Position numbers and translations under genes: made by a program. From NCBI GenBank assembly GCA_015063135.1, contig SUTA01000005.1, positions 54,560-118,559 of the forward strand: a DNA stretch of 64,000 nucleotides, read 5' to 3'. This DNA comes from Thermoplasmata archaeon (GTDB taxonomy: Archaea; Thermoplasmatota; Thermoplasmata; Methanomassiliicoccales; Methanomethylophilaceae). Positions 1-64,000 of this stretch are shown here, in pieces (the stretch's first letter is position 1; the number at the start of each line of letters is the position of its first letter). The notes beneath the pieces were generated by a model that had not been told where the DNA came from, did no database searches, and was given only the letters and a program-made list of their open reading frames with translations.

Positions 1-360
1 GACGAGAAGTCGCAGAAGTTCAAGGAGATCGTCTCCGTTTCCGAGGTCACGTACCTCATGAACGGGTCCACCGAGGAGCACACATTCTTCATCCGCCTGG
101 ACAAGGCCGTGACCCCGGAGGAGATCCAGGTCCTCGCCGACGTGGCGCTTGACATCCTCAAGAACTCCGAGGTCCCCTGCATCTCCATCGAGGACCAGGT
201 CCAGAGGTACCAGGTCGTCATCACCAACTGGGAGGAGCCCGAGATCATCGGCCTCAACAAGACCCCCGGCATGTCGTCCGGGCAGGTCTTCCTGCCCATC
301 ATCAAGGGCATGGATGCCCCGGGCAGGCCCAACAGCTCCATGCAGGATCAGTTCTTCCGA
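1..360 (+). CDS. 5'-truncated protein of unknown function, ends at CGA
   Basis: The frame is open from base 1, so the start lies outside the window; 119 residues are visible. The protein looks soluble, with no membrane segment, and I do not recognise the family. The standard frame stays open to TAG at 520-522, but everything after base 360 is antisense to the membrane protein gene and reads like shadow sequence. An in-frame CGA at 358-360, after residues QDQFF, is where I end the gene, matching 21 other CGA ends here. The two genes are then convergent and overlap by 13 bases. Confidence 0.55.
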
Positions 361-1445
361 ACCTGCACGGGGTCGAAGCAGGTCGAGGGATCCCTCCTGG
401 GGGTCCCCGGCGGCGCATCGGACAGCGACGGCACGTCGCCGCCCAGGCTGGAGCATATGCCTGAGGGCATGAACTCCCTCCTGGCCCTCTGTATAGCCTT
501 CACGGTGGTGCTCTCCAGATAGCCGTAGTACAGCTCGGACGCGATGACCACCATCGCCAGCATGACCACGATGGACATAGCGATGCTCACAAGCACGAAC
601 GGGTCCTTCCAGAGCACGATGGCCAGGAGGACGGTGGCGAGTGCCAGCGGTATGATGATGCGGCTCATGGTGCCCATCAGCCCGTCGTAGAGCCTGAACC
701 CACCGTGGTCGGTCTCGATCCTCACGTCCAGCGTCTCGAATGCGGACAGCGAGAGAACGGCGACGGCAATGTAGCCCATGGCGATGAACACCGCGTCCAC
801 CGAACCGGACGTGAACTCTGAGTAGTTCTGGTCCGCGAACATGAACATCCAGATGAACATGCAGAAGAACAGCGCGAGCAGGATCCTATTGGCTATCTCC
901 CTTACCGGGACGCCCTTCCTGCGGATGCCCTCCTCCATGTCTATGCGGCGGGTGTCCAGCCCCTTCGGGATGTCGAAGAGGTACAGTGCCAGCAGCTCCA
1001 GCGGGCTGCTGCGGTCCCTGCCGTTGACGAACTCTATGGTCCTGAGGATCCTGAAGAAGACCAGCCTCTGGATCATATCAGCGGCCACGGCCGCGCCCTC
1101 GAACCCGAACACCACGAGGATGGTCTCCACGGTCCCCCATGGCAGGAAGACTATGGCGATGACCGTCGCGGCGGAGGCGATGGCGAGCAGGATCCAGCGG
1201 GAGTGGACCACGTAGCCGTACACGCCCATGCCCATGAGCGGCAGGAGCATGAGGTTGAACGATTGGTACCAGGTGTAATCGCTGACGAACGGGACGATGA
1301 CCGCGAGTGCCAGACATACGATTATCGATGCGGCGAAACCGAGGAAGACCTTCCATTCCCTTGGTTCCAGCATGGCAGGAAGCGGCTCATCCTGCACCGG
1401 CGACCTGGCGGCGCGCCCCTTCGGCATCTTCAACTTGAGTTCCAT
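348..1445 (-). CDS. Multi-pass membrane protein, unknown function
   Basis: 365 residues with about seven or eight hydrophobic segments: roughly residues 31-53, 63-80 and 84-103, one near 110-125, and four more between 188 and 305. A charged cytoplasmic-looking stretch of about 60 residues separates the two halves. The start ATG at 1445 overlaps the CGA end of the gene upstream in the arrangement CGATG, so the two are probably co-transcribed and translationally coupled. It ends with a normal TGA. No family was recognised and no catalytic motif is visible. Confidence 0.8.
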   Translation of the reverse strand: MELKLKMPKGRAARSPVQDEPLPAMLEPREWKVFLGFAASIIVCLALAVIVPFVSDYTWYQSFNLMLLPLMGMGVYGYVVHSRWILLAIASAATVIAIVFLPWGTVETILVVFGFEGAAVAADMIQRLVFFRILRTIEFVNGRDRSSPLELLALYLFDIPKGLDTRRIDMEEGIRRKGVPVREIANRILLALFFCMFIWMFMFADQNYSEFTSGSVDAVFIAMGYIAVAVLSLSAFETLDVRIETDHGGFRLYDGLMGTMSRIIIPLALATVLLAIVLWKDPFVLVSIAMSIVVMLAMVVIASELYYGYLESTTVKAIQRARREFMPSGICSSLGGDVPSLSDAPPGTPRRDPSTCFDPVQVRKN

Positions 1446-1780
1446 CGCTTATCAATCCATGCTTCCAGGGTGACCTGGGCCTTCTCGCCCCTGTATATCC
1501 CCAATATGATGCCCATGCTGTCCATCGACTTCGTGGGGAACGGCCCGAACACCAACTCGGTCTGGTTCTCCTTGTGGCCGGCCGCGGAGCGGTCGTCGTT
1601 GGCCACGACGATGTCGACCGGGTTGTCCGACTTCAGGCTGACGTAGAGGTTCCTCCGGGGCTTCACATCCAGCGGAATCGTCACGACGTTGCGGTAGCAG
1701 CCGTCCACGGTGGGATCGAAGTCCCCTACGGATACCGTCTCGGGACCGAATACGGTGACCTTCTTGGCGAACAGGGACAT
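1445..1780 (-). CDS. Small conserved hypothetical protein, ends at CGA
   Basis: 111 residues from ATG at 1780; no membrane segment or recognised domain. The frame meets CGA at 1445-1447 after residues AWIDK. This CGA shares its last base with the ATG of the next gene (CGATG), exactly where a TGATG overlap would be expected. With the standard code the frame would add five residues to TGA at 1430. It lies 30 bases behind cbf5 and may be the tail of the ribosomal transcript. Confidence 0.65.
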
Positions 1781-1810
1781 GCCGAGGTGATGCAGATTTG
1801 ACTATTTGGG

Positions 1811-2806
1811 TCATTCGGGGAGCTCGGGGCCTTCGTAGCCCTCGATGTCCGTCGAGTACCGCCACATGCGGGGGTAATGGCCGGGCTCCATGAACACCCT
1901 CACGGTGTCCACCGCCCTTCCCTTATCAGAATCCATGACCTTCTGGGTGGACATGGACATCCTCCCCAGGGCTATGAGCTCCCCGCGGGCGGTGATCATC
2001 GCTACGAGCGCGTTCTTCCTTATGTCCTCGTCCAGCATGTGTACTCCGGATACCTGCAGGTCGGCCCCGTGACAGATGGCATCCACCGCCGTGGCTTTGA
2101 CGACGACCTTGGGCAGCGGCTGGATGAGCGCCTCCATGGGGAGCAGCATCTCCCTGAGCATCCTCTCCTTGCCGTTCTGCTGCCAGAATATGTACGCGTC
2201 GCGGATGTCCTGGAGGGTCCTGGCCCTCTCCTCTGTCATCTTGCCGGACCTGGTGCGCCTGAGCTCCTTCATGTTCGCTCCGCATCCGAGCATGTCGCCG
2301 ATGTCGGTACACATGGTGCGCACGTACGTCCCCGCATCGCAGGACACCCTGAACAGGATGTCCCTGCCCCTGATCTCCAGGATCTCCAGCTCGGCGATGT
2401 GGCGGATCCTCATCTGCCTCTTCACCGCGGACCTGACCGGGGGCAGCTGGTAGATGCGACCCTTGAACCTGCCCATGACCTCGCGGATCCTAGCCTCGGG
2501 ACGGTCCGCGTGGAGCTGCATGAGGCAGACGTACTCCTTGTCCGACGAGAGGACGACATCCGTCAGACGCACTGCCTTGCCCAGGGTTATCGGGAGAACG
2601 CCGCTCACATAGGGGTCCAGGGTGCCGCCGTGGCCGATGTGCTCCACGTGCAGCGCATCCCTCACCCATGCGGTAGCCTGGTGGGATGTGGGGCCTGACG
2701 GCTTGTCCAGGATGACCACCCCGCCCTGCAGCAGCTCGCCGACCGTCCTGTCGGACGGCTTCTTCCCCCACTTGTCGGGGATGGCATTCGGGTCCTTCAC
2801 AAGCAT
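1811..2806 (-). CDS. cbf5: Cbf5, RNA-guided pseudouridine synthase (H/ACA RNP)
   Basis: 331 residues, the usual length of archaeal Cbf5. It matches the family from its start (MLVKDPNAIPDKWG) through the catalytic GHGGTLDP motif (about residue 63), the KEYV and RSAVKR segments, the GTYVRT motif, and a C-terminal PUA domain. It forms the pseudouridylation enzyme with Nop10, Gar1 and L7Ae and modifies rRNA and tRNA. The ATG at 2806 follows directly on a CGA codon ending cmk, in the same frame, so the standard code reads both as one 507-residue protein. It ends with TGA. Confidence 0.92.
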   Translation of the reverse strand: MLVKDPNAIPDKWGKKPSDRTVGELLQGGVVILDKPSGPTSHQATAWVRDALHVEHIGHGGTLDPYVSGVLPITLGKAVRLTDVVLSSDKEYVCLMQLHADRPEARIREVMGRFKGRIYQLPPVRSAVKRQMRIRHIAELEILEIRGRDILFRVSCDAGTYVRTMCTDIGDMLGCGANMKELRRTRSGKMTEERARTLQDIRDAYIFWQQNGKERMLREMLLPMEALIQPLPKVVVKATAVDAICHGADLQVSGVHMLDEDIRKNALVAMITARGELIALGRMSMSTQKVMDSDKGRAVDTVRVFMEPGHYPRMWRYSTDIEGYEGPELPE

Positions 2807-3334
2807 TCGCGCACCGACCGCTTCCAGTATCCTCTGCAGGACCTGGTCGGGGTCGAGTTCGTCCGTGTTGATGACCAGGTCGTAGACGCTGAGGTCTTCG
2901 ATGTCTATGTTGTAGTACATCATGTACCTCTTGGCCTCGGACCTCTGCCTGTCGACCGTCTCGGCGACGGCCGCCTCCAGGCTCTGCCCCTCGCGCAGTC
3001 CGATGCGCACCATGCGAACCTCGGGGCTTGCATCGAGGTAGATCCTGAACGCGGGAATCCCGTTGCGGGTGAGCATGTAGGCCGCGAGCCTCGATTCGAG
3101 AATGATGTCCTCGTGGCGCCTTGCGGTCTCCACGAGGCGGGAATCGATCATCTGATCGATGGAGGGGTCCTGCTCGGCCAAAGCGCCGAGCTCCCCCAGG
3201 GAAATGTTTTTCTCTGCAGCGAGCTCGCGGAAGATCTTCCCGAAGACCACGGCCTCCAGGCCGAGTGTCTCCGCGAGCTTGCTGCAGGCGGTCGTCTTCC
3301 CGCTTCCGGGCGGACCGCTTATGGTTATCCTCAT
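2807..3334 (-). CDS. cmk: Cytidylate kinase (archaeal type), ends at CGA
   Basis: 175 residues, the normal size of archaeal CMP kinase. The P-loop GPPGSGKTT sits at residues 7-15, followed by the nucleoside monophosphate kinase fold with the RSEAKRY lid region. It phosphorylates CMP and dCMP. The start ATG overlaps the DUF106 stop as ATGA. The frame meets CGA at 2807-2809, immediately followed by the ATG of cbf5. CGAATG stands where TGAATG is expected, and both flanking proteins are full length on either side of it. I therefore read two genes, not a fusion. Confidence 0.9.
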
Positions 3335-19086: not shown

Positions 19087-20439
19087 ATGGCCAAGAAGAT
19101 AATTGTCATCGGATCGGGCGCCGCGGGCATGACCGCCGCGTCCGCCGCCAAAGCCCAGTGCCCGGAGGCGGAGGTCACCGTCTTCACTGAGGACACCGAC
19201 ATCGCCTACTCGCCCTGCGCCATCCCCTTCGCCATCGAAGGGAAGAGCGGCTGGGAGAACATCGTCATGCACGACCCCGCCTTCTACGAGAAGGAGAGGG
19301 GCATAAAGGTCCTCACGGAGACCAGGGTCGAGTCCGTGGACGAGGAGAAGAAGGCCGTCGTTGCCGCAGGAAAGGAGCACGCCTACGACTCGCTCGTCAT
19401 CGCCACCGGCGGAAGGGTGTTCGTGCCCCCCATACCGGGCGCCGACCTCGGCAACGTGTTCATCGTCAGGACCATCAGGGACGGCAAGGCCATCCAGTCC
19501 GCCCTCAAGGGCGCCGACAAGGTCGTCATCGGCGGAGCGGGCGTCATCGGCCTCGAGCTCGCCGTATCCCTCCACAACATGGGCAAGGACGTCACTATCA
19601 TCGAGATGATGCCCCAGGTCATCCCCCGCATCGCGGACAAGGACATGGCCGACATCATCCAGAAGGACCTGGAGGCCATGGGCATCAAGTTCGTCATGAA
19701 GGCCCCCATCCAGTCCGTCAACGGAGAGGGCAAGGTCCAGAGCGTCACCGCCGACGGCAAGGAGTACCCCTGCCAGGTGATGATCTTCGCCACCGGCATC
19801 CGCGCCAACCTGGACCTCCCCAAGGCCCTCGGATACGACATAGGCCAGCTGGGGGCGCTCGCAGTCTCCCCCACCCTCCAGCCCTACAGGAGGGGCCGCC
19901 TGGTGCCCGACGTCTACATCGCCGGGGACCTGATGCAGTGCGAGTCCGCGGTCATGCCCGGGCCCACCATGAGCCAACTCGGCTCCACCGCGGTCAAGCA
20001 GGGCCGCATCGCCGGCCACAACGCCGCATGCAAGGAGAAGCTCCTCTTCGGGCCCGTCGCCAGCCCATGGGTCAGCGTCATCGCCGACAGGCAGATCGCC
20101 GGCACCGGCCTCTCGCTGGGCCTCGCGTCCTGGTACGGCCTCGACGTCGTCGTCGGGAAGGCCGAGGGGCTCACCCGCGCCAGGTACTACCCCGGCGGCA
20201 CCCCCATGACCGTCAAGGTCCTCGCGGACAAATCCACCCACAGGATCATCGGCGCGCAGATCGTCGCCGGCGAGGAGGCCACCGGGCGCATCGACTGGCT
20301 CACCGCCGCGGTCGTCAACCACATGACCGCCGAGGAGTTCCTCATGAAGAGCGAGAACGCATACTGCCCGCCGACCTCCATGGTCCAGGACCCCGTCATC
20401 ACCGCGGTCATCGACCTGTGCAGGAACCTCGGGAACCGA
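19087..20439 (+). CDS. NADH oxidase / CoA-disulfide reductase-like flavoprotein, ends at CGA
   Basis: 450 residues, the normal length of this pyridine nucleotide-disulfide oxidoreductase class. The N-terminal FAD-binding motif is IGSGAAGMTAAS (residues 7-18). The redox cysteine lies in YSPCAIPF (about residue 43), and the NAD-binding motif is GGAGVIGLELA (about 157-167). It probably reduces a disulfide or oxygen with NAD(P)H. CGA at 20437-20439 stands four bases before the ATG of the next gene, where a stop is expected. With the standard code the frame runs on to 21384 in the shadow frame of that gene, adding Arg/Pro-rich sequence without homology. The start could also be GTG at 19078. Confidence 0.85.
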
Positions 20440-20443: not shown

Positions 20444-21211
20444 ATGCGCTACGAGGAGTACAAGCAGCTCTACGACAGCCTGAGGACCGCCAAGGACGTC
20501 CGCAGGCTCGAGTCCACCTACGACGACAAGCTCCTGGACACCCTGTTCACCCAGAAGGTCAACAGGGAGGTCAAGAAGCGCTTCTACATCGTCAAGCAGA
20601 ACTCCAAGAAGATGCTGAAGGACTGGCAGAAGGGCACCACCATCATGGAGCTCTCCGACCGCTACAGGTTCCCCCCGATCCTCATCGCGATGTTCCTGTT
20701 CCTCGAGGACGGGGCGTCGAAGAAGGAGTTCTGGGGCTACATCAACGACCCCGACCAGCTCGAGCCCGGAACCGCAGAAGAGCTCAGGGAGGCCGTGGAG
20801 AACGACATCGTCTACTCCCCCGACGCGAACATCCGCCAGAGGGAGAGGGGGCTGTGGGGCGAGGACCTGCTGCACCAGTGGCTGGACGGCCAAGGCGTCA
20901 CCTATCGCACCGAGAACGACCTCCGCGGCGAGGAGACCACCAAGACCCCCGACTGCCTCCTGGACCACCCCGTGGTGTACCAGGGGCACGTGATCAACTG
21001 GGTCGAGAGCAAGGCCTCCTTCGGCGACAACACCGAGTTCAAGTTCAACTCCAGGAAGCAGCTCGTCCCCTACACCGAGCTCTTCGGGCCCGGCCTCGTG
21101 GTCTACTGGGTCGGCTGCCTGGACGACCTCCAGTGCCCCCAGGACGTCTACGTCAACGACATCTCCGTCATGGACATCAAGCTGGAGAAGACCGAGGAGT
21201 GGGGGGAGCGA
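20444..21211 (+). CDS. TPD-motif protein (CDIN1/C15orf41-like), putative PD-(D/E)XK nuclease fold, ends at CGA
   Basis: 255 residues. The C-terminal half has the pattern of the TPD family: GEDLLHQWL, then TPDCLLDHPV (the TPD motif), then INWVESKASFGD, consistent with a D...ExK nuclease-like active site. Homologues in eukaryotes include CDIN1; the archaeal function is unknown. A helical N-terminal part (about residues 1-110) may bind nucleic acid. The frame meets CGA at 21209-21211 after residues KTEEWGE. The standard reading would add 100 residues to 21514, mostly antisense to the ATPase gene. It lies in an operon with the flavoprotein. Confidence 0.82.
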
Positions 21212-22792: not shown

Positions 22793-23674
22793 TCGGTTCT
22801 CTGTGCGGAGCTCCCCGAGGGTGCCCTCCCTCTGGGCGTACGCGTTGTGCTTATGGATCGACTCCTCGGACTCGCTCTCCACGACGACGTATGTCTCGTC
22901 GGGGAGGTCCTTGAACCTGTCCACGACCCTTACCAGGACATCTCTGACGACGTCCTCGACGAACTTAGTGTTCTCGTGGGCGTTGATGATGACCTGGCCC
23001 TCGTCCGGCCTCTTGAGGAGCTCGAACGTGGGAGAGGAGAACGAGGCCTCGGCGATATCGATGAGGTCGTCGGCCTCCACGCTCTTCCCGGCAGGGAGGG
23101 TTAGCTTGAGGGTGATCACATTGCGCTGGTTATGGGTCATGACCACGATGCCGTCGGAATAGCCCATCATCTCGGTGACGGTCTGCTGCCCGCAGGGGCA
23201 GGCGGTCATACCGATGACCTTGACGCCGATGGTGCGCTCGGGCTCATGGCCGCGCTCCTGCCTGCAACCGGCGAGGAGGGTGTAGGACTCGTAGGTGTCC
23301 TTGCCGAGGGGGGTCTTGCTGGCCCTGAAGTACTCGGCGGAGATGGAAATCTCCACGAAGCGGGCATACTCGTGGCGCACGAGGAGTTTCTGGCATATGG
23401 AGGACGACATATCCTCCAGGCCGGTAATCGGCTCACTGACGCTCTCCCTGACGACCTCGTTGAGGACCTCGACGTTGCGGCTCATGTGTGAGCCCTTCTG
23501 ATCGGCCGGGAGGTCGACGAATATATCAAAGGAGCAGTTGAGGGCGTTGTTGAGCTTGCGCCCCCTGTCGTCCCTCTGGACCAGGACAGGCTTGTGGACG
23601 CCCCTGACCCCCACGCGGGAGAGCCTGAAGCTTGCATCGCCCCTGCCGTACTGCAGGTCGCATTTGAGCGTCAT
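22793..23674 (-). CDS. mptA: GTP cyclohydrolase MptA (type IV), ends at CGA
   Basis: 293 residues. It resembles the archaeal MptA/FolE2 family: RLSRVGVRGVHKPV near the start, CDI-type beta strands, ARFVEISISAEY, and the metal-site region VIGMTACPCGQQ. MptA opens tetrahydromethanopterin synthesis by converting GTP to a cyclic phosphate of dihydroneopterin. The frame meets CGA at 22793-22795 after LGELRTEN. The standard frame adds 23 hydrophobic residues read from the AT-rich spacer, ending at 22724. Confidence 0.9.
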
Positions 23675-24962: not shown

Positions 24963-25952
24963 TCGCTGCTCGGGTTCCTTCGGCTTGCGCTTGAAGGAAA
25001 TTGTCACGGTGTCCTTCTTCTTGGGAGCGACTTCGCCCTCCCGGCCGTCCGCAGGCTCCTTGGGCTTGCGCTTCAGCGAGATGTTAACGGTATTGCTCTT
25101 GCCCTTGGTGGGGGCCACCGGGGTGCTGCGGTCCTCTGCATCGTCGTGGACCACGTAGTTCTCGTCAAGGTGGGAATCGAGCTCGTCGCCGTCCAGAAGG
25201 GCTATGTGCGGCCTGCCCTGGAGCTGCATGACCTCGCAATCGATCCCGTACAGCCTGACGATGTTGTCGTGCGTCAGCACCTCATCTACCGTGCCGTCGG
25301 CGTATATGCTGCCGTCGTAGAGCATCAGGATGCGGTCGGCGTACATCGCCGTGACGTTCAGGTCGTGGCAGATCGTGATGACAGTGATGCCCTTCAGTTT
25401 GGCGACGTCGCGGAGCATCCTCATGACGAGCATCTGGTACTTCACATCCAGATTGGCGGTCGGCTCGTCCAGGAGCATTATCCTGGGCTCCTGCGCCAAA
25501 CTCCTGGCTATCATCACCTTCTGGTGCTGACCGGCGGATAGTTCATCGAAGTTGTGCATGGCGAAGCTCTGCATGCCCAGGAGCTTGATGTTCTCGGCTG
25601 CGATGCGCACATCGTCGGATGTCATCAGGTTCCCGCTGTGCGGTATCCTGCCCATCAGCACCGTGTCCAGCACGGTCATGGAGAACGTGGTATCCTCTTG
25701 ATGCGGCACGAAGCTGATGATCTTCGAGAGGTCCTTCAGGCTGAATTCCTGCAGATCGTGCCCGTCCAGCAGCACCCTGCCCTCGGTCGGGACGGAAAGC
25801 TTGTTGAGGCAGTGCATCAGCGTGGACTTCCCGGCCCCGTTCGGTCCCAGGATGCAGACGAGCTCCGGTTTGTCGATGGTCACATTGACGTTCCGAAAGA
25901 TCATCTTCTGATCGTAGGCGAAACCGAGGTTCTCCAGCTTTATCTCGGTCAT
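24963..25952 (-). CDS. ABC transporter ATP-binding protein (FecE/BtuD type), ends at CGA
   Basis: 329 residues. Walker A GPNGAGKSTL (about 35-44), signature LSAGQHQKV, Walker B RIMLLDEPTANLD and a switch histidine (ITICHDLN) mark an importer ATPase of the iron-siderophore/cobalamin family. A charged C-terminal extension holds two copies of the KRKPKEP motif. CGA at 24963-24965 follows KRKPKEPEQ. The standard frame would continue 30 residues through a hairpin and stop only at TAG inside the tRNA gene. The gene lies one base behind the permease. Confidence 0.9.
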
Positions 25953-38473: not shown

Positions 38474-39655
38474 TCGCCTCATGAGGTAGAACACGAACCC
38501 GGACCAGATCTTCGGGAAGAAGAAGGTGGTCTTCTTGGGCATGCGCTTCCCGGCCATGGAGAGGTCCCAGATGCTCTGGAGGCTGGGATCGTTGAGCACG
38601 ATGGCCAGGTCGTGCTTCTTCTCCGCCATGGCGGCCTTCACGGAGGAGTACTCCGCATCGTAGGAGACGGTCGCCTTGCCCTCGTCGGACTTGTAGACGC
38701 CCTTCAGGATCTTCTCCTGGGCGACATAGGTGTCCAGCTTCCACATGCCCTCGCCGTCGTAGTCGGCCAGCATGCACAGGCCGGATTTGAACATCAGGCC
38801 CATCATGTGGTCCTTCAGGCCGGCCTCCATCTCCTCCAGGGAGACCTCCTGGACCTTCAGCTCCTTGGAGATGCCCTTGACGGCGTTCTTCTCGGAGATG
38901 TTTCCGGTGTCCACCAGGCGGTGGGTGGGCCAGATCACGAGACCGGCATCGTCGGCTGCCACGAGGGTGGTCAGGACGTAGCCCTTCTTCTCGTTCCCAG
39001 GGTTCTCCAGGGAGTAGTTCAGAGCGGTCTCGTACCTGTGGTGGCCGTCCGCGATCAGCATCTTCTGGCCCTTCAGCTCCTCGGTGACCTGGGAGGTGAT
39101 CTCGGGGTCGGATAGGGTGTAGTACTTGTGCTCCACGCCGGCATCGTCAACGAACCTGTAGGCGAGCCTGGCGTTATCCTTGATCTTCCTGTTGAGCTCG
39201 GGGGTGAAGCCCTCGTAGATGCCGAAGATTGACTCCAGGTGGGCCTCCATGTCCCTCAGGAGGTTCAGGCGGTCCGCCTTGACCTTGGAGAAGGTCTCCT
39301 CGTGGGGGATGATGTTGCCTTCCTCGTACTTCTCGGTCTTGAGGATCCCGACGATCCCTGTGCGGACCCTCTGGGTGCCCTTGTCGTCGAAGGTCTGCTC
39401 GTAGATGTAGAAGGAGTCGGAGTCCTGTTTCAGGGCGCCGCTCTCGATCCAGGAGTCCAGCGTTGCGCGGGAGGTCCTGTACCTCTTGTCCGCGTCGGGG
39501 CTGAGCGTGAGGTTGGTGACGTTGAACGGGCGGGACTTGAGATCCTTTAGATACTCCTCCCCGATGACGTCGTAGGGAGGGGAGATGCGGTCGCCGACGT
39601 GCTCACCGGCGCGGATGTTCGGTCTGTAGCCTTTGAAAGGAAGGAATGTCACCAT
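38474..39655 (-). CDS. DUF1015 family protein, ends at CGA
   Basis: 393 residues from ATG at 39655. The start VTFLPFKGYRPNI, the block ISPPYDVIG, and LIADGHHRYETAL are diagnostic of DUF1015, a widespread family of unknown function often next to serine or amino acid metabolism genes. Family members end soon after the conserved MPKK(S/T)T-F-PK-SG block, and here FVFYLMR is followed by CGA at 38474-38476. A second in-frame CGA lies at 38468-38470. The standard frame adds 11 residues to TAA at 38444. Confidence 0.87.
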
Positions 39656-40805: not shown

Positions 40806-40825
40806 ATCCAGAGGATATGAGGGGT

Positions 40826-40841
40826 CTGATATAAGGCACTC
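40826..40841 (-). promoter_or_regulatory. TATA-like box of hypE
   Basis: On the minus strand CCTTATATC is centred about 28 bases before the ATG at 40805, so the hypE transcript is probably leaderless. Confidence 0.45.
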
Positions 40842-41172
40842 GCCCCGGATCGAACCGCGTCCCGTACGGCCCCCTGCGGGGACGAAAACAACGGAAACCG
40901 ATCGGATGAGCCGTGAAAAGGGGTTGACCCGTGCTCTCGCACGGGTAAATCGTTTCTCAGCGCCTCCTGAGGACGGCGATGACGGCGATGACCGCTATCG
41001 TATAAAATTGGCCGAAAGATGCTCGGAGTTTTTAAAGAGTATATAAGCAACACGTGTGTAAAATCCAGTTGCCCTTCTGCATCGGATGGATTCGCCAATA
41101 TCCGACCGATGCTCATCGCGGCGAAGGGAAATACGCTCCCCGGACCCACGTCCGGAGAGCGCGGAAAGATGA
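40842..41172. other. Intergenic region between hypE and the PEBP gene
   Basis: No convincing gene. It holds a perfect hairpin ACCCGTGC/GCACGGGT at 40927-40946, AT-rich TATA-like sequence near 41030-41046, and a GC-rich hairpin at 41140-41155. On the minus strand a short frame ending ATAVIAVIAVLRRR-like at about 40961 resembles the hydrophobic C-terminus of a surface protein and may be a relic. Confidence 0.4.
41140..41155 (-). terminator. Terminator hairpin after the PEBP gene
   Basis: CCGGAC and GTCCGG pair around a four-base loop, 18 bases beyond the CGA end at 41173. The standard-code tail of the PEBP gene would be translated straight through it. Confidence 0.5.
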
Positions 41173-41679
41173 TCGGGATTGCTTCTTGGGCGAGTACTTC
41201 CCCACCAAGGTCGCGTGTGCCAGCACATGCCCCTGCATGGCAAAGAACAGGTCGTTCATCATGAATCCGCGAGGCAGTCCCAGCTCGCAGTCCAGGGCGT
41301 ACACCCTCAGAGTGTACCTGTGCTCCCTGTCGGGGGGAGCGGGGCCGCCGTACCCGGTGGCCTGGGCCGCCGTGAGCTCGTCGGCGATGCTATGCCAGCT
41401 GTTGCATCCCTCGGTGAAGTCCCCGGACTTCCCGGACTCGCCCTCTGCGACGGATGCCCTCTTGAGGTCGCATACCAGCCAGTGGATCCAGTCGAACCCG
41501 CACACGGGGACGGCGTCGTAATCGTCGAAAACGACCGCGAACGACCTGGTCCCCTCGGGGGCCCCTACAATCTCGAAGGGGATGGACAGCGACGGCATGC
41601 CGTCCCTGAACTGGGTCCCCTTGGAGCCGTAGCGGTCGGCGATGATGCCGTTCTCGATCGCGCTGCTGGTGACCTGCAT
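41173..41679 (-). CDS. PEBP/YbhB-YbcL family protein, ends at CGA
   Basis: 168 residues. Family blocks are ENGIIADRYGSKGTQF near the start, LSIPFEIVGAPEGTRSFAVV, VCGFDWIHWLVCDL (with the ligand-site His), YGGPAPPDREHRYTLRVYAL and the C-terminal GHVLAHATLVGKY. Members bind small anionic ligands; the archaeal role is unknown. The ATG shares a base with the apt CGA end (CGATGC). CGA at 41173-41175 follows SPKKQS. The standard frame adds 19 residues through a hairpin to 41113. Confidence 0.87.
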
Positions 41680-42203
41680 CGGGCTCCCTCGTAAACGAGG
41701 AGGGACTCGACGTCGTAGCCCTTGAGCCTCTCGCGGCCCTTCAGGCCGGCCAGCTCCATGACGAACAGGATCTTCACGACCTCGCCGCCGAGCCTCTCGA
41801 CCATCTTGACGATGGCCTCGGTGGTGCCGCCGGTGGCAATGAGGTCGTCGACGATGACTACCTTCTGGCCGGGCTTGACGGAGTCCTTGTGCATCTCGAG
41901 GGTGGCGGATCCGTACTCCAGGTCGTAGTCCTCGGAGATGGTCTCCCTGGGGAGCTTGCCCTTCTTCCTGACCAGGATGAACCCCTTGTTCGCCAGGTAG
42001 GCGACGGGGGTACCGAAGATGAACCCTCTGGACTCGGAGCCCAGGACGAGGTCGAAGTCGACGCCCTCGAGGCGGTCCATCAGGCCGTCGACGGCCAGCT
42101 TGAAGCCGTCCGGGTCGCTCATGATGGTGGTGATGTCCCTGAACATGATGCCGGGCTTGGGGAAGTCCGGGATCGTCGTGACGTAGTCTTCCAAAGATTT
42201 CAT
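41679..42203 (-). CDS. apt: Adenine phosphoribosyltransferase-like protein, ends at CGA
   Basis: 174 residues. The start YVTTIPDFPKPGIMFRDIT and the PRPP-binding loop VVIVDDLIATGGTT (about 122-135) are typical of Apt, which joins adenine and PRPP to AMP. CGA at 41679-41681 follows SLLVYEGA and overlaps the next ATG by one base. Without it the frame would run on into the shadow frame of the PEBP gene. It probably shares a transcript with the PEBP gene. Confidence 0.9.
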
Positions 42204-42268: not shown

Positions 42269-43369
42269 TCGGTAGAGCTGCTCCGAGCAGTACGGGCAGT
42301 ACTTCGGGGTCTTCGGGAGCCCGCTGATGTCCTGGCCGCAGTAGGGGCAGACCTTGAACGCCAGGGGAGCCCCTCCGGCAGGCGCGGGGCCTGCTCCGGC
42401 GGGCGCCGCCGGGGGCGCCTGGGCCGCCTGCTGCTGGGGCGACGGCTTCCCGCAGTTCCCGCAGAACTTGTAGGGATAGTCGTTGGGGTTGCCGCAGTAA
42501 GGGCAGAGCACCTTGGGCGCCTGCTGCATCTGGGCCTGCTGCCCCTGCACACCCTGCACGGGCTGCTGCTGGAGCTGCTGGTACATCTGCGGGAACAGAA
42601 GCATTCCGGTTCCCATCGCCGCACCTCCCTGGGAGTTGCCTATCGCATCGGCCATCCTGTCCATGACCTCGTACTTCTTGAAGGCCTCTCCGTTGGCGCT
42701 GCTGAACTGCAGGTACTCGAAGATCTTCTGCTGGTCCTCCTCGGTGGTCCTCGCCTCGGCGATCTTCAGCGAGAGGAGCTCTATGCCCCTCTGGGTGAAG
42801 TACTGCTCGACGAGCACCTTGGTGGTGGTGGAGGCCTGCTCCAGGTTGTTCAGCATCTCCATGTAGTACTGCTTGGAGAGCTGCTGGGTGATCTGCTCGT
42901 TGATGAACGCCTTCATGAAGGCGTTGAGGTCGCCTGTGGTGTAGGACCTGAGGCCGCCTAGTACCTGGGTGTAGAACACCGGCACGTCGCTGACGCGGAA
43001 CTGGTAGTCGCCGTTCGCCATCAGCGTGACGGGGACCTCGTATCCCTGGGCAGCCTTGATCATTCCGCGGATGCCCCATTTCCCGTTGAACATCTTCAGG
43101 GAGATGAAGATGATCTGCACCTTGAAGGGGCTCTCCTTGTATCCCATGGCCAGCTGGTACAGCTTGGTGAGCCAGGGGATGTTGCTGGAGGTGATCATGT
43201 GCTTGCCGGGCTGCAGGACGCCCTGGAGCTGCCCGTCCCTGGCGAAGACGGCCACGGCGTGCTCCGGGACGGTGACTGCCGTCAGCGTCCTCAGGTCGTC
43301 GTGCTCGTAAGCGTAGATTATGTCGTCTGGGCCCTGCGACTCCCAGAACACAACGTTGGTCTTTCCCAT
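42269..43369 (-). CDS. SPFH/Band 7 protein with C-terminal zinc ribbons, ends at CGA
   Basis: 366 residues from ATG at 43369. The N-terminal SPFH domain includes AVFARDGQLQGVLQPGKH and SLKIAEARTTEEDQQKIFEYL. A Gln/Pro/Ala-rich linker leads to two CxxC zinc ribbons (CPYCGNPNDYPYKFCGNCG; then CPYCGQDISG with CPYCSEQLY). SPFH proteins assemble into membrane rings or act as scaffolds. CGA at 42269-42271 follows EQLY directly. The standard frame adds 22 residues, passing through the terminator to TGA at 42200. Last gene of a five-gene operon. Confidence 0.88.
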
Positions 43370-43901: not shown

Positions 43902-44261
43902 TCGCACGCTCCTGTTCTTGACTGCCATCACTATTCCGGTGACCGCGACGACCACGAGGATCACGACCGCGGTGTAGACGACCTCGCCGGTGTAGGTGTA
44001 CACCAGGCCGGCCGCCCCCAGTCCTGCCATGACGACCCCTCCGGCCACCATGACGTCGGCCTCCGACGGGCCGAACGAATCGTTGCTGTCGCTCTTGAGC
44101 CTGGACGCGACCATCACGTACAGGCCGAACACGATCAGCACCACCCAGACCGCCGAAAGGTAGTCTCCGGTGGTGAACCCGACGAGGAGCCCGAAGGCCA
44201 CCGCCAGGAGGAAGGCCCCGACGGATATCGCCGAGGAGGTCCTTGAGTTGATTTGTGCCAT
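43902..44261 (-). CDS. Small membrane protein, ends at CGA
   Basis: 119 residues from ATG at 44261, with four hydrophobic segments (about 10-30, 34-51, 68-85 and 88-108). No family recognised. CGA at 43902-43904 follows VKNRSV; after two more bases the next gene starts, so CGAGAATGG stands where TGAGAATGG is expected. The standard frame would continue 12 residues inside the next gene to 43866. Confidence 0.72.
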
Positions 44262-44273
44262 TCCCTTCACCTC

Positions 44274-46892: not shown

Positions 46893-49076
<2,184 letters not shown>

Positions 49077-49194: not shown

Positions 49195-50073
49195 ATGCCT
49201 GAGAAAGAGCGCGACGAGACGCTGGACGACTGGGTAGACAAGCTCGAAGAAGAGGAGAAGGCCGAGGAGGAGAAAGCCACCGTGGGCGACATGGTGGGCG
49301 ATGTCGGCGTCAAGGCGGTACCCGCCCTCAAAGGGATGCTCGCCGAGATGACCATCCTCCCCGTGAAGGCCTCCGACGAAGAGAGGGACACGGGGTACTC
49401 CAACCCGTCCATGCTCCCGCTGGTGGGCGTGGTGCTCGGCATGGCCATGATGATCATCCTGTGGGTCGTCGCCAAGATCGAGGATGTGTTCAATGCGCCG
49501 CTCTGGCCCATATTCGCGCTGTTCGCCGTGGCATCCTCCATGGTGATCTTCAAGTTCGCCTTCCTCGGCGACCTCGCCAGGTTCGGGGACATGCTGTTCC
49601 CGCAGGCGTCGAAGGACTCCGGCACGCCACTCGGCGGCATCGCCGTCATGATCGTCTGCGTGGCGGCCAGCGTCGCCATGTACATCACCCTCGACGGGAA
49701 CGTGGGCTCGGAGGTCGCGGCCGTCGCCGTCGGCCTCACAGAGGTCTGCATCCTGAACGCGATGGTCTGCACCAGGTCCTTCGCCAGCTCCGGGTTCAAC
49801 ATGAAGAACGTGGCGATGTCCACGCTGATCAGCATCGTCGGAGCCCTGATCATCACGCTCATCTGGATGGTCCTCGTGGGGGACGTGGACGTCAGGCACG
49901 TAATCGTCGCCATCCTGACCGTGGTGTTCTCCATCATCGGCGGCTTCGCCGTGGGATTCATCGCCAAGAAGGGCATCGGCTACGTTCCCGACGACGCCGC
50001 CGGCGCCGCGGTGGAGCTCACCAGGCCGGTCCTCGTATTCCTGGTGGTGTTCTTCTTCTGGGCCCTCAACCGA
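49195..50073 (+). CDS. Multi-pass membrane protein with acidic N-terminus, ends at CGA
   Basis: 292 residues. An acidic, Glu/Lys-rich cytoplasmic N-terminus (about 1-70) is followed by about seven membrane segments. No family recognised. CGA at 50071-50073 follows VVFFFWALN, at the end of the last membrane helix. The standard frame adds 45 residues that read through a GC-rich repeat and the TATA box of the thermosome gene, ending at TAG 50209-50211. That would make it the only gene here ending in TAG. Confidence 0.75.
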
Positions 50074-55810: not shown

Positions 55811-56560
55811 TCGCAGGCAGGCGTCCATGTACTCCTTGTACCTCGGCTTGGCCAGGAACGACGCGTCGATGTCCTCTTCCATCCTCCGGTACAGCTTGTA
55901 TGGGACGGCGAAGGACATCCTGTCCTTGTCGACATACCGCCTTGCATAGAGGTCGGTCATCCCTATGACGGCGTGCGGGTCATCGGACTCGCCCTCGCCC
56001 CTCGGGATGGCGTACACCTGCTGGCAGGCATGGCCGTACGGCATTATGGCCGCCGGGCCCGGGGCTGTCTTGGAGAATGCCGCGAGCTGCTGCAGCACGG
56101 ACAGGCGCATCGGGTCCACCAGGAACGCGACGACCTCTATCGGCCTGCCTTGGGACAGCGCATCGTCCAGGTCCTGGAACACGATGGCGTCGCTCCCGTC
56201 CCCGTAATCCCTGATGGGCTCCATCTGCAGCAGCGCTATCTCGGAGGTCGCGAAATAGGACATCCCCGAGCTCCCGTGGGCCATGCCGCTGCGGACCTCC
56301 TCGGGAACCGTGGACGCCGACCAGGCGGACCTCTGGCGGTCCGCGATGCCGCCGAATCCGAAGCCGCTCTTCGATCCGTGGCACGGGGAATGGGCGGAAT
56401 CCGCGGCGCACTTGCCGCCGAGGCGGGTGCAGCGGACGAAAAGGGAAGGTATGGTGCAGTGGCCGTTCTGAGGAACGAAGGCATCCTCAGGCAGCGTCTG
56501 CTCGCGGTAGATCGCGACCGCATGGTTATCCAATCTGATGATCTCGGCTAGCCTGCTCAT
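55811..56560 (-). CDS. DUF169 family protein, ends at CGA
   Basis: 249 residues from ATG at 56560. It resembles DUF169, with LDNHAVAIYREQTLPE near the start, SEIALLQMEPIRDYGDGSD in the middle and GMTDLYARRYVDKDRMSFAVPY toward the end. The function is unknown; family members are frequent in methanogens. CGA at 55811-55813 follows YKEYMDACL. The standard frame adds 39 residues through a terminator to 55691. A perfect inverted repeat overlaps the start codon region. Confidence 0.83.
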
Positions 56561-57231: not shown

Positions 57232-58020
57232 TCGCTTCCAGAGCACCGGCCTATCGTCCCTCGGCACCGTGCGCCTGAACCTGATGCGCGGATGGCCGAT
57301 CACGAAAACCGCGTAGACACTCAGGCCCTCCCCGACCTCGGGGAAGAACGACATGAACCTCTCCGGGTCGTTCTCTGATGCCTGCAGGATCCATCTGGAA
57401 TGGAATCCCCCCAGCCCCATCGAGAAGGCCATAAGGTCCAGCTGCTCCATGGCTATGATGGCATCTATGGGCAGACGGGAGAATGCGATGATCAGCTGCC
57501 TCCCCTCCCATGTGAACGGGTTGTTCCTCCCCACCATCCCGCCTTCCACGTAATCCACGAACTGTGCCAACCTCGGATGCTCATGGGTATGGGATTTCAG
57601 GATGGAAGCGACCAGCCTCATGAAGTCGTCGAACCCCTCGTCCACCACGGCGAACTGGACGGCCTGGGAGTTCTCCGCCGTGGGGGAGTACCTCAGGGAC
57701 GCAGTCAGCCCCTCCAGCTCCTCCCTCGTGCATCCCCTGTCGAACCAGCGGAGGCTGCGCCTCCTGCGGTACAGCTCCGCCAGGGCCCCGGGGGGCACCG
57801 GGCATCCCGAGACGGCCTCCTGCTCCTCGCCGAGGTGGTCCAGCATGGCTATGGCGCCCTTCGGGCAGACCGCCCCGCAGTGCCCGCATCTGAAGCAGCT
57901 GTACGGGGATTCGATCTCCACCGCCCTGCCTCCCTCTATGGCCAGATGCCCGCGTATGCAGACCTTGGCGCACTGCCCGCATCCTATGCAGGAGTCAGAT
58001 ATCATTAGCGTCCGTTCCAT
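57232..58020 (-). CDS. Ferredoxin-nitroreductase fusion protein, ends at CGA
   Basis: 262 residues from ATG at 58020. Two 4Fe-4S motifs lie at the N-terminus (CIGCGQCAKVC, about residue 10, and CFRCGHCGAVCP, about 40). A nitroreductase domain follows (RRRRSLRWFDRG, SPTAENSQAVQFAVVD, MGLGGFHSRWI, VFVIGHPRIRFRRTVPR). It probably passes electrons from the clusters to FMN. CGA at 57232-57234 follows DDRPVLWK, a typical end for the family (RxxPR...V.W). The standard frame runs on to 56929. Confidence 0.88.
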
Positions 58021-58167: not shown

Positions 58168-58950
58168 TCGGAGATCCGCCACGATTTCCGAGACGGCCAC
58201 CAGAACCGCCTTCCCGCTTATGCCCATCCTCCCGTTGCCGCGCGGTTCGCAGAGCAGATACCCGCCCCTCCTGGAAGCCTGGTAGGCATGGATGGATTCC
58301 TTTCCGAGCTCCTTGGCCCAGTAATCGGCGATCTGGCAATGCGCCGATCCGCACACAGGGTCCTCGGGGACCAGGAGCTTGGGGAAGAAGCTCCTTGACA
58401 CGCAATCCGCATCCTCCCCCCTGGCGGTGATGCTCTGCCCGCGGCCTGGGAGCCTCGCCAAGGCGGCCTGATCCGGCTGCATGCTGCGGACCTGGTCCTC
58501 CGATTCGAAGACGCAGACTAGATCGGTCCCCAGGATAGCCTTCGCAGGTCTGACCCCGAATGCCCTCTCCATATCGTCCGTCACCGGGATCTCGTGCTGC
58601 TCGCATACGGGGAAGTCCATCTCGTACAGGTCGCCCTTCCTTGCGACCGACAGCCTCCCGCCGAGCGTGATGAACTCTATCTCGTCCCCATCCTGGCGGA
58701 AGTGGTTGAACAGCACGAAGGAAGATGCCAGTGTGGCATGGCCGCAGAGCCCGATCTCCCCGCCGGGGGTGAACCATCTCAGACGGTAGCCCCCGCTCTC
58801 CTTCACTATGAACGCCGTCTCGCTCAGATTGTTCTCCATCGCGAGCTTGAGCATCGAGCCATCCGCCGGCCATCCCTCCATCACGCAGACGGCCGCGGGG
58901 TTCCCCGCAAAAGGCTCGTCCGTGAAGGCATCGACGATGTATTGCCTCAT
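58168..58950 (-). CDS. PhzF-family isomerase, ends at CGA
   Basis: 260 residues from ATG at 58950. Family blocks: YIVDAFTDEPFAGNPAAV, NLSETAFIV (with the catalytic Glu), RWFTPGGEIGLCGHATLA, and DPVCGSAHCQIADYW in the second half. The PhzF fold catalyses isomerisations; the substrate here is unknown. CGA at 58168-58170 follows VAVSEIVADL, matching the usual end after the GKAV block. The standard frame adds 32 residues to 58072. Confidence 0.88.
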
Positions 58951-59955: not shown

Positions 59956-60840
59956 TCGGAGGTATCCGTCGTATGAGTCGTAGAGCTCTTTCATGATCTC
60001 CACGAATCTCCTGACCGGCGCCCTCTCATCGTTCGCCTTGGTGCAGAGGACGCAATCGAACCTCTCCGGGCAGTCGAAAGGTATCCATCTGTATCCGGGA
60101 TCGTCGCCCTTGAGGAAACCGGGGGATAGGCAGACCCCCTTCCCGACGGCGACGTTGACCATGGTCGTATCGTGGTCGTGGCTGTTGTAGTATCCGACGT
60201 CGGCATACCTGATGACCCTCTGCTGCACGGCGATGAGCTCCGGAGGGGAGCCGCCCCCGACCATCAGGAGCCTGCCGCCCATGTCCTCCACGCCTATCAC
60301 ATCCTTGGAGGCCAGGGGGTCGTCGTCCCTCGTTATGAGGTATATCCCGCTGTAGAACAGGTGGTCCTCCCTCACGCCCGGGGACCCGTCGAGCTCGCCC
60401 TGGGCCGTGAACTCCATATCAGTCCCTCCTGATAGGAATGAGGTGAAATCCCCGTACGGATGGAAGACCGGAGTCACCGATACGTCGGAGTATTCCTCCG
60501 AAAACCTCCTGACTGCATCGGGGAGGAGCCTGAGCGCGGACCTGACCGGCAGTCCTACCCTGATGTCCTGCCTGTACGTCCCGCTGATGTTCTGGCAGTG
60601 CTCGATGAGCTTTCTCAGCTCCGTGCGGAGCGCGAACAACCCGGAGCAGAGCTGATCGCCAGCCGGCGTGATGGCCATGTTCCTGCCGTTGCGCTCGAAT
60701 ATCTCGAAACCCACCTCCCTCTCGATCTGCTTCAGCTGGTAGGAGAGGGTGGGCTGGGACACGCCTAGGGATTCGGCCGCCTGGTTGAGGCTCATCGTTT
60801 TCCTGATCTCGAGCAGATAATTTACCTGTCTGGTGTCCAT
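59956..60840 (-). CDS. LysR-family transcriptional regulator, ends at CGA
   Basis: 294 residues, the normal LysR length. The helix-turn-helix is at residues 1-60 (RQVNYLLEIRKTMSLNQAAE, then LGVSQPTLSYQLKQIERE), followed by the effector domain (QDIRVGLPVRSALRLLPDA). It is divergent from the flavodoxin operon, with a very AT-rich spacer, so it likely regulates that operon. CGA at 59956-59958 follows LYDSYDGYL. The standard frame would run through the DUF1638 gene to give 599 residues. None of its roughly 30 Arg codons before the end is CGA. Confidence 0.92.
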
Positions 60841-60938: not shown

Positions 60939-61457
60939 ATGACCAGAAACCTGATCGTATACTACTCCCGCAAGGGAGAGAACTACTTCGGCGGCTCCAT
61001 CCGCGACATCCCGAAGGGGAACACCGAATACATCGCCGAGTACATCGCATCCGCCGTCGGCGGCGACCTGTTCGAAGTGGACACCGCGGAGAGCTATCCC
61101 TCGGACTACATGGAGTGCACCGAGGTCGCTAAGAGGGAGCTGAGGCAGGGGGCCAGGCCCGAGCTGAAGAGATATCTCGATTCAATCGACGGATACGACA
61201 ACGTCTTCGTGTGCGGCCCCTGCTGGTGGGGGACCTACCCCATGGCGGTCTTCACCCTGCTCGAGAGACTCGACTGGAGAGGCAAGAGGGTCTTCGCGGT
61301 CATGACCCACGAGGGGAGCGGGATGGGCTCCTCCGAGCGCGACCTGAAGAACGCATGCAAGGGTGCTGTCCTCGCCGGGTCCCTGGCAATAAGCGGGAGC
61401 CAGGCGCAGTCATCCGAGAAGAAGGCAGCCGACTGGGCCAGGTCGTGTCTGGGGCGA
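60939..61457 (+). CDS. Flavodoxin, ends at CGA
   Basis: 172 residues. The phosphate-binding loop region is NLIVYYSRKGENYFG, followed by VGGDLFEVDTAESYPSDY and the flavin-contact block FVCGPCWWGTYPMAVF and GSGMGSSERDL. It carries electrons with FMN. CGA at 61455-61457 ends the gene four bases before the next ATG (CGATATCATG). With the standard code it would extend to 62576 through two other genes (545 residues). It lies behind an AT-rich promoter region shared with LysR. Confidence 0.9.
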
Positions 61458-62859: not shown

Positions 62860-63420
62860 AACATCAAACAGGCACATCCTCGGATGTGCCGAATTCACTT
62901 TTTATCAGCTCGGTCCGCGTTTGCTATTACATTTTTATGATTCATATAGGATTATCCCTTGGGATGAACGCCATGGGATCCACAGGATGGTCGCAATCCC
63001 GTCTTCATCGATCTGTACAGATGGCTGTCGGAGTATCCGCCGGATGATGCATGACACGGAAGCATGAGCATCGGAGGAGAACCGGCAGGCGATGAGGTCA
63101 CTGCTGGACGATAACGTACCTCGTGATGACCATCGAATACGGCTATGGATAAGGAAATGGCGCCGAGAGAGATGCAAAACGCATTGAGCCAGACAATTCG
63201 GGCGCTTCGCTATAAGGCGGGGTTTTCGTGAGTTGTTTGGCAGCCTCTCTTCGCCATGTCTTGCATAAATCTACAACTCTTAACTTCATTCTACCTCCGG
63301 ATTTCGTGTAATTTTGCTGAATTTCTCGTAGTGTTGAAACCACTTCAATCAACGAATTGCGAGGAATCAGAAATGGCAATTGGTAACATAGGAAATGATG
63401 TCATACAGACATTCGGAACA
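62860..63420. other. Non-coding, decayed region
   Basis: No intact gene. A short hairpin (CACATCC/GGATGTG near 62873-62887) may terminate the operon. A fragment near 62970-63047 encodes RNPVFIDLYRWLSEYPPDDA and stops, which looks like the C-terminal remnant of a lost gene. Base composition is more AT-rich than in the gene clusters. Confidence 0.45.
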
Positions 63421-63742
63421 TCAGCACAGCCACCTCTCTACGAACGCCCTGACCTGACCAAGCGGCTGGCTGAAATAGACCGGGGATCCGAGTACGATGG
63501 CATCGGCTCCTCTGAGCTTCTCAAGGACGGGCGCAGGTCATCCTTCATCGTACACACGCCATTGATCTTCGCATCCTTCAGCTTGCATTCGAAGCAACTC
63601 GTGCAGCCTTTGAACGTGTAATCATAGAGGTCTATTCTCTCTACCTCGAATCCATGTCCTTCAGGGCCTCTCCTGCCTTGTCGATGGCCTGCGTAGTGTT
63701 CCATTTCTTGCGGGGACTTCCGTTGATAACAAATGCCTTCAT
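63421..63742 (-). pseudogene. Frameshifted NADPH-dependent FMN reductase/iron-sulfur flavoprotein remnant
   Basis: ATG at 63742 opens MKAFVINGSPRKKWNTTQ, the FMN-binding start of this family. A base is missing near 63651 (frame change before GFEVERIDLYDYTFKGC) and another near 63528 (before LEKLRGADAIVLGSPVYF). The sequence then stops at TGA 63421 after FVERWLC, well short of the normal roughly 180 residues. Two frameshifts and truncation point to a pseudogene, though sequence errors could explain the frameshifts. Confidence 0.7.
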
Positions 63743-63949
63743 GATGTGAGGGCTTGTTCAAGAGATATAAAGTCATAATATCGAAGGTCACACCTGAGCA
63801 ATCCAAGATGGTCACACCTGTTCTTCAATACTCTGTAAACGAAAGGATCCATCTTTGCTGTTTGATCAGTTTCAACCTGACTTTGACACACCTGCGCGAT
63901 AGCGTCTGCTGACAGAATCGGGAACCGGCATAATTTGACAGTAGCCCAT

Positions 63950-63968
63950 GACCCCGCTGCGCGGGGTC
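63950..63968. terminator. Hairpin near the window end
   Basis: GACCCCGC and GCGGGGTC pair around TGC, followed by TTAGG. A terminator or small structured element; the transcript it would serve lies outside the window. Confidence 0.4.
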
Positions 63969-64000
63969 TTAGGATACTGCTGTCCCCCTGCTTTTGCGCA

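Follow-up and report, generated by a model that had tools for sequence, protein, structure and literature searches.

The arginine codon CGA stands in frame at the natural end of 22 genes, and inside none, in a 64,000-nucleotide stretch of a Thermoplasmata archaeon of the order Methanomassiliicoccales (GCA_015063135.1, contig SUTA01000005.1, positions 54,560 to 118,559; this whole stretch is hereafter the window). We propose, with a probability of roughly 0.8, that CGA is a fourth stop codon of this genome (G000), likely read by its ordinary archaeal release factor aRF1, since the gene for tRNA-Arg(UCG) appears to be gone. Recognition of CGA by aRF1 is what we infer from comparison of sequences. 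Recoding was one of the explanations offered in an initial annotation of the window, which was made from its letters alone, and it is supported here because CGA is used widely at the sampled gene ends, no truly internal CGA was found, tRNA-Arg(UCG) was not found, and a CGA kept inside the aRF1 gene of related species ties the codon to the release factor.

CGA at the ends and in the interiors of genes

G000 is a draft assembly of 1.86 Mb in 40 contigs, 87.5% complete, and the window is part of its contig C25. A sample of 418,860 bases (the window plus 20 further stretches, about 23% of the genome) was used for wider counts. A SecY scan sets this uncultured archaeon within the methanogen family Methanomethylophilaceae, beside genomes such as UBA71, RGIG6046 and RGIG6908, many of which come from the guts of ruminants. 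Genes in both the window and the sample were called by codon usage with CGA set as a stop, a setting that was bypassed by two checks, a reading of frames in the standard code and an orthologue-end test. The initial annotation had placed CGA at the ends of 22 of 74 genes. The caller returned the same 22 positions, and all were verified as in-frame CGA triplets, but it counted 73 genes rather than 74; these end in TGA (46), CGA (22), TAA (4) and TAG (1), with no CGA inside any of them. The annotation had also suggested counting CGA inside and at the ends of genes beyond the window. Among 399 genes called in the 419-kb sample, 192 end in TGA, 173 in CGA, 20 in TAA and 4 in TAG, and 10 are cut by an edge, so that CGA takes 173 of the 389 called gene ends. 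In 107 of the 192 TGA stops, the T is shared with a possible start of the next gene (ATGA or GTGA), and a T-to-C change there would destroy that start; with these set aside, CGA (173) outnumbers TGA (85) and becomes the commonest stop in the sampled 419 kb. Such overlaps make up 31 of the 46 TGA stops in the window, which would explain the low CGA share of its ribosomal-protein cluster. Only 4 of 389 ends in the window and stretches L032-L051 are TAG, and such rarity might be expected in an order that uses pyrrolysine.

Read in the standard code, the frames over true genes of the window are free of CGA before the gene ends (e.g., 46878-49076, 733 codons), and shadow frames contain dozens. Calling the sample with the standard code gave 348 genes, 129 of which contain CGA, and in 115 of these the part after the first CGA has a negative coding signal. 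Eight standard-code genes show a strong coding signal past a CGA; five were judged to be two adjacent genes in the same frame, two to reflect start choice and one to be a shadow frame.

In the orthologue-end test, the reference was the called genes of relatives that lack any CGA and end at a standard stop, and offsets were taken as medians over the matching relatives. It yielded 67 entries, two of which (one TGA, one TAG) show the window genes ending at 1445 and 358 a second time, in an alignment that extends one codon through the terminal CGA, leaving 65 distinct genes. Forty-eight end in TGA, all within 10 residues of the relatives' stop, and 17 in CGA; of the latter, 15 lie within 10 residues and 12 at offset 0. 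The remaining two are 35 and 72 residues off, with matches of 44% and 41% identity, and are perhaps paralogues. Past the terminal CGA, genes of this group reach a standard stop after a median of 43 codons. No truly internal CGA occurs in the 16,122 orthologue-aligned codons, compared to 968 other Arg codons, which together with the CGA-free standard frames bears out the earlier reading that CGA is missing before gene ends. An initial version of this test took in every open frame of the relatives that lacked CGA. Antisense shadow frames over ribosomal genes dominated its outcome, with 57 internal CGA in 36,013 codons and ends in TGA (83), TAG (75), CGA (43) and TAA (7), and it was replaced by the version restricted to called genes.

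Orthologue places exist for 14 of the 22 window genes (none for those ending at 29383, 29720, 37280, 50071, 55811, 58168, 59956 and 61455), and some of these places are one genome under two locus identifiers. In this comparison, which the initial annotation had suggested, they mostly end in TGA where G000 has CGA: 199 of 205 places end within 10 residues, with TGA in 163, TAA in 20 and CGA in 16. The annotation had set two of its sites, 31829 and 37280, apart as weaker; the first is now supported by its 13 orthologues (Table 1), and the second stays weak. A Pfam scan of 20 CGA-ended window genes matched 17 to a family (those ending at 1445, 43902 and 50071 match none), and several domains, such as those of the ammonium transporter and the folE2-type protein, are complete just before the CGA. 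At the cytidylate kinase gene cmk, the CGA is followed directly by the in-frame ATG of truB (window 2800-2809), so that the standard code turns the two into a fusion. A similar CGA junction is found in seven named relatives. Across the loci of relatives compared (L112, L117, L122, L125, L126, L129, L130, L297, L298), the truB ATG stands about one codon after the CGA. The pattern of CGA at gene ends is far beyond chance.

The base after the codon also behaves as it would at a stop. At the 173 CGA ends the following (+4) base is T in 72, A in 44, G in 41 and C in 16, and at TGA ends it is C in 29 of 192. C follows 28.9% of all CGA triplets and is depleted after CGA stops (Fisher p = 5e-10), as would be expected if the release factor disfavors +4 C.

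The arginine tRNA and the release factor

The 43 tRNA places matched by RF00005 in G000 include, as typed by ARAGORN, the Arg anticodons GCG, CCG, CCT and TCT. tRNA-Arg(UCG), whose loss had been proposed alongside recoding, was not found among these 43 places of the 87.5% complete genome, and the closed genome of relative G030, put through the identical screen, has the same set plus TCG. Nor was it found at the orthologous locus. In relatives, the gene adjoins the orthologue of window gene 39759-40805, with tRNA-Thr(GGT) a few kb away. It lies between the orthologues of 39759-40805 and 41173-41679 in G001, G020 and G026, and one flank matches in G029 (where only the first flank was called) and in G028 (which has another gene on the far side). 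In the corresponding 367 bases of the window (40806-41172), none of nine tRNA-Arg(UCG) sequences aligns better than the best of 100 shuffles.

The gene was found in 27 of 30 same-genus relatives (loci compared: L232-L250, L338, L354-L373), and all 27 copies are odd. Nineteen have A.A or C.A as the final anticodon-stem pair (31-39), and in the other 8 C33 replaces the usual U33; eight copies from other genera have neither feature. Only G000, G013, G016 and G017 gave no such gene, and incompleteness (87, 88 and 66%) is the simple explanation for the last three. An earlier DNA search, with matches of at least 80% identity in 19 of 31 genomes, had suggested that a whole sub-clade of relatives lacks the tRNA; this was wrong, as the full tRNA list of the closed G030 revealed the diverged C33 copy that eight such relatives bear. 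It is striking that 27 genomes retain a tRNA whose codon they use about once. A tRNA-Trp with a 4-bp anticodon stem is reported to permit UGA readthrough, and its competition with RF2 is discussed (PMC13092985); that work deals mostly with the top pair of the stem, and it is the bottom pair that is altered in the genus.

aRF1 of G000 has two substitutions just after its NIKS motif, K53N and N54H, which are unique among 25 genomes and stand opposite L69 and S70 of human eRF1 (by alignment, with human numbers counted by hand). N53 and H54 are candidates for a firmer hold on CGA. In the relatives, CGA itself occurs within the gene. All 24 same-genus relatives with a full-length aRF1 have it at alignment column 65, the Arg of SIA(A/S)RLKTY, and it is found in 0 of the 408 cells formed by the 17 other conserved Arg columns. 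The preceding codon is GCT in 15 and TCT in 9, and the base that follows is C in 24 of 24. G000 instead has CGC at column 65, with CGA at the end of its aRF1 gene. The reading frame in the relatives is identical before and after the CGA with no +1 frameshift, so the site would be one of readthrough and is not a frameshift site of the RF2 type, though it may work like one. An in-frame UGA-C in a giant-virus eRF1 gene is described as a weak, read-through terminator (PMC3521657). If +4 C is likewise weak in these archaea, CGA would be leaky at the aRF1 site and firm at gene ends.

CGA is almost wholly purged from gene interiors in the relatives, with aRF1 as the one exception. The closed relative G014 was read over 520 kb (464 genes, 139,358 codons, 8,099 Arg codons), and no gene but aRF1 was judged to hold a true internal CGA; 14 genes end at CGA, and one other case with a coding tail looks like a gene boundary. 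Read in the standard code, 16 of 461 G014 genes hold CGA: aRF1, one gene boundary, three with it in the first seven codons, attributed to start choice, and 11 with it late in the gene. Across about 250,000 codons of 20 relatives, in which CGA in the first 40 codons or before a weakly coding tail was classed otherwise, 20 interior CGA have a coding signal behind them, and 17 are in aRF1, one per genome in 17 genomes. Outside the genus, CGA is found in 21 of 24 aRF1 genes (L282-L301, L077-L081), once or more per gene. Columns 12, 65 and 110, depending on lineage, are the commonest places, though it also occurs at others, and some of these genomes use CGA hardly at all outside aRF1. The aRF1 genes of G065, G066 and G083 lack it. 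For G114 and G117, of another genus, only one CGA was counted in the called genes of the stretch, and aRF1 holds one at column 65. Self-trained callers gave implausible CGA counts for the non-genus stretches L287, L295 and L301, which were excluded. In the aRF1 tree, the 24 relatives group without G000, which branches next to them.

Three further features of these aRF1 genes were observed. In G001 (L169), which has CGA ends in 13 of 92 genes, NIKS reads NIRS, a change at the residue that we take to touch the first base of the stop. Two other family members have in-frame stops in aRF1, TAG in G109 (G109:C21:6184-7389) and TAA in G087 (G087:C10:9931-11139), possibly reflecting pyrrolysine, autoregulation or error. 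The third feature is the Arg at column 173 (QSSVRFERL), which G000 and 24 of 24 relatives all encode by CGT, a rare codon.

A codon probably contested across the genus

CGA-ended genes in 20 relatives were judged by the coding signal of the tail, short tails being weak evidence. Together they show 78 CGA ends in 841 genes, ranging from 0 to 26% per genome. CGA ends with a non-coding tail number 26/101 in G027, 7/31 in G026, 7/33 in G029, 9/52 in G009, 13/92 in G001, 5/37 in G021 and 5/108 in G014, and the other 13 relatives have 0 or 1 each (e.g., 0/65 in G030). Cases anchored by orthologues are few but direct: the orthologue of the gene ending at 1445 and truB in L086, and truB in L098.

We propose that CGA was first a codon contested in the genus between aRF1 and a tRNA-Arg(UCG) weakened by the mismatched 31-39 pair in some members and by C33 in the rest, with aRF1 accepting CGA wherever this tRNA is slow or absent. 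The CGA inside the relatives' aRF1 gene could then act as a feedback sensor: when aRF1 is plentiful the chain would end early, and when it is scarce the tRNA would insert Arg. TGA-to-CGA point changes at gene ends would have been tolerated from then on and could have spread, to between 0 and 26% of genes in the relatives. In G000, loss of tRNA-Arg(UCG) would have completed the reassignment and ended the contest, and the aRF1 codon is now CGC. With moderate confidence, then, we favor the whole sequence of events, in which aRF1 competes with a weakened and nearly idle tRNA, the CGA of the aRF1 gene serves as a thermostat, CGA spreads to gene ends species by species, and G000, having lost both the tRNA and the thermostat codon, is left with a code of four stops, UAA, UAG, UGA and CGA.

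Several observations weigh against this account or parts of it. The CGA ends of the relatives rest mostly on an absent coding signal in the tail, and many of these tails are short. The altered aRF1 that the initial annotation envisaged is at best weakly supported: the NIKS and YxCxxxF motifs of G000 are intact, and K53N and N54H are not common to the relatives that also show CGA ends. The three interior CGA outside aRF1 in the 20 relatives lie, at differing places, in a putative winged-helix/TPR-like regulator near aRF1 (Table 1). Feedback through aRF1 is suggested by conservation, and in the other genus of the family represented by G065 and G066, CGA is nearly absent while aRF1 has none. The position of G000 in the aRF1 tree is compatible with loss of the aRF1 CGA in G000 as well as with its later gain in the others; the same column-65 CGA in G114 and G117 favors loss in G000. 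Finally, tRNA-Arg(UCG) may have moved to the unassembled part of the genome, and tRNA-Tyr(GTA), tRNA-Pro(GGG) and one (third) CAT tRNA were also not found in G000. The closed G030 yielded none of these three by the same method, and they were therefore probably overlooked rather than absent.

An alternative hypothesis is that CGA has no reader at all, so that ribosomes stall with an empty A site and are freed by a rescue pathway (aPelota/ABCE1 or similar) with no specific recognition by aRF1. The missing tRNA-Arg(UCG) fits this, aPelota is encoded, and in Neurospora an eRF1 with a mutated NIKS motif still gives some termination at rare codons (PMC6755126). We nevertheless think rescue unlikely. 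CGA ends also occur in relatives that still have tRNA-Arg(UCG), the single CGA that all 24 relatives retain belongs to the aRF1 gene and not to that of a rescue factor, and the avoidance of +4 C resembles a release-factor context; relying on rescue at so many gene ends, those of cmk and folE2 among them, would presumably be costly as well. C-to-U editing of the terminal CGA to UGA, which the initial annotation also listed, is compatible with the sequence, as orthologues of CGA-ended genes mostly end in TGA and thus differ at the first base of the stop, yet it explains less than recoding and strikes us as very doubtful: no sequence motif is strong enough to mark 173 sites, the absence of internal CGA needs no editing machine, and the CGA in the relatives' aRF1 would be edited as well, truncating the protein. 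Editing of a general kind should also produce CAA or CAG ends, though with so few TAA and TAG stops in this genome that expectation has little power. A sequencing or assembly artefact, or a set of ordinary genes with long unconserved tails, is so very unlikely as to be negligible, even for a draft in 40 contigs, because separately assembled relatives show the same pattern, a T-to-C error limited to stop codons is implausible, and the coding signal after the first CGA is negative in those 115 of 129 standard-code genes.

Table 1. Genes ending at CGA in the window, the tRNA loci, and regulator genes of relatives with one in-frame CGA (positions are those of the window unless a locus is given; places and orthologues are compared by distance from the CGA)
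Feature	Position	Strand	Evidence
Gene, 5' end cut by window start; CGA at 358	1..360	+	49/49 orthologue places within 10 residues (TGA 47, TAA 2)
Conserved small gene; CGA at 1445	1445..1780	-	No Pfam match; 40/40 places within 10 residues (TGA 37, CGA 2, TAA 1)
Cytidylate kinase cmk; CGA at 2807	2807..3334	-	Pfam Cytidylate_kin2; 65/69 places within 10 residues (TGA 40, TAA 16, CGA 9)
FAD/NAD(P) disulphide-oxidoreductase type; CGA at 20437	19087..20439	+	Pfam Pyr_redox_2 and Pyr_redox_dim before CGA; one orthologue, same residue, TGA
TPD-family gene; CGA at 21209	20444..21211	+	Pfam TPD 110-239 of 255; one orthologue within 10 residues, TGA
GTP cyclohydrolase, folE2 type; CGA at 22793	22793..23674	-	Pfam GCHY-1 reaches profile end (260/260) ahead of CGA; one orthologue within 10 residues, TGA
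ABC transporter ATPase; CGA at 24963	24963..25952	-	Pfam ABC_tran; 1/3 matched places within 10 residues
P-II regulator; CGA at 29383	29383..29709	-	Pfam P-II 1-105 of 108 residues
Ammonium transporter; CGA at 29720	29720..31042	-	Pfam Ammonium_transp to profile end (399/399), residue 438 of 440
NFACT-family protein; CGA at 31829	31829..33766	-	Pfam NFACT_N, NFACT-R_1; 13/13 orthologues within 10 residues, 9/13 at same residue
MMPL transporter; CGA at 37280 (weak case, normal stop within six codons)	34718..37282	+	Pfam MMPL
DUF1015 protein; CGA at 38474	38474..39655	-	Pfam DUF1015; 4/4 orthologues at same residue, TGA
Phosphatidylethanolamine-binding-type protein; CGA at 41173	41173..41679	-	Pfam PBP to profile end; 8/8 orthologues within 10 residues (TGA 5, CGA 3)
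Phosphoribosyltransferase; CGA at 41679	41679..42194	-	Pfam Pribosyltran; 7/7 orthologues at same residue (TGA 6, CGA 1)
SPFH/Band 7 zinc-ribbon protein; CGA at 42269	42269..43369	-	Pfam Band_7_1, DZR; 5/5 orthologues at same residue, TGA
Small gene; CGA at 43902	43902..44270	-	No Pfam match; 3/3 orthologues at same residue, TGA
Gene; CGA at 50071	49195..50073	+	Gene caller; no Pfam match
DUF169 protein; CGA at 55811	55811..56560	-	Pfam DUF169 3-229, profile to 208/209
Ferredoxin/nitroreductase-type protein; CGA at 57232	57232..58005	-	Pfam Nitroreductase, Fer4_7; one orthologue (46% identity) at same residue, TGA
PhzF-type protein; CGA at 58168	58168..58950	-	Pfam PhzC-PhzF 6-252 of 260
LysR-type regulator; CGA at 59956	59956..60840	-	Pfam HTH_1, LysR_substrate 89-285
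Gene; CGA at 61455	60939..61457	+	In-frame triplet, gene caller
tRNA-Thr(GGT), neighbor of tRNA-Arg(UCG) in relatives, retained	38281..38353	+	tRNA search
Empty orthologous site of tRNA-Arg(UCG)	40806..41172		Between genes 39759-40805 and 41173-41679; no trace of tRNA
Winged-helix/TPR-like regulator, one in-frame CGA (G007)	L179:6425-6769	-	Named from appearance
Winged-helix/TPR-like regulator, one in-frame CGA (G009)	L176:4021-4383	-	Named from appearance
Winged-helix/TPR-like regulator, one in-frame CGA (G005)	L171:11164-11529	+	Named from appearance

Relation to known code changes and release-factor control

In the autoregulation of bacterial RF2 (prfB), an in-frame stop lies in the release-factor gene itself and is passed by a +1 frameshift. 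Like that gene and the giant-virus eRF1 gene (PMC3521657), the relatives' aRF1 gene contains an in-frame codon of stop type in a putatively weak +4 C context, where the product could limit its own synthesis. Unlike RF2, the codon in the relatives is a sense codon, CGA, which is read on in frame, putatively by tRNA-Arg(UCG). Competition of this kind is reported from Neurospora, in which eRF1 terminates chains at rare codons and ribosomes stall at CGA, whose tRNA-Arg(UCG) is scarce (PMC6755126). As proposed here, the release factor there competes with tRNAs at rare codons. The effect described in Neurospora is lower output from mRNAs rich in such codons, whereas in G000 a sizeable fraction of genes would normally end at CGA.

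CGA and CGG have been found reassigned in bacteria in which they are rare, and tRNA-UCG is reported missing in three Firmicute cases involving CGG (Codetta; PMC8629427). These Arg codons came to encode amino acids, Trp in the reported cases and Gln in Peptacetobacter (PMC13092985), and not stops as in G000. Codetta is described as unable to detect changes from sense to stop (PMC9825746), and because it cannot call them, a change of the kind proposed here would be invisible to its survey. In practical terms, the standard code gives false tails in such a genome and fuses neighbors such as cmk and truB, and tools for code prediction without stop calling would miss the change. If the genus does offer living intermediates, with between 0 and about 45% CGA ends and with the tRNA changed or lost, the codon-capture and ambiguous-intermediate models would become directly testable in it.

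Changes from sense to stop are reported from organelles. UCA and UCG serve as stops in Scenedesminia mitochondria (PMC6821328), and UUA and UCA do so in peDinoflagellate plastids, a case called the first outside mitochondria (PMC12574857). Our search of the literature, mostly at the level of abstracts, did not turn up CGA as a stop codon of any cell, nor such a change in Methanomassiliicoccales. G000 would be the first known example of a sense-to-stop change in a cell rather than an organelle. If true, a cellular case with a factor of the eRF1 type and a stop that begins with C would revise what release factors can read. The organelle cases resemble G000 in that a former sense codon stands at gene ends and a changed release factor is proposed as its reader (PMC6821328, PMC12574857). 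They differ in using release factors of bacterial type, whereas the change in G000 would concern an archaeal cell whose factor is of the eRF1 type and whose new stop begins with C, and its relatives show intermediate stages.

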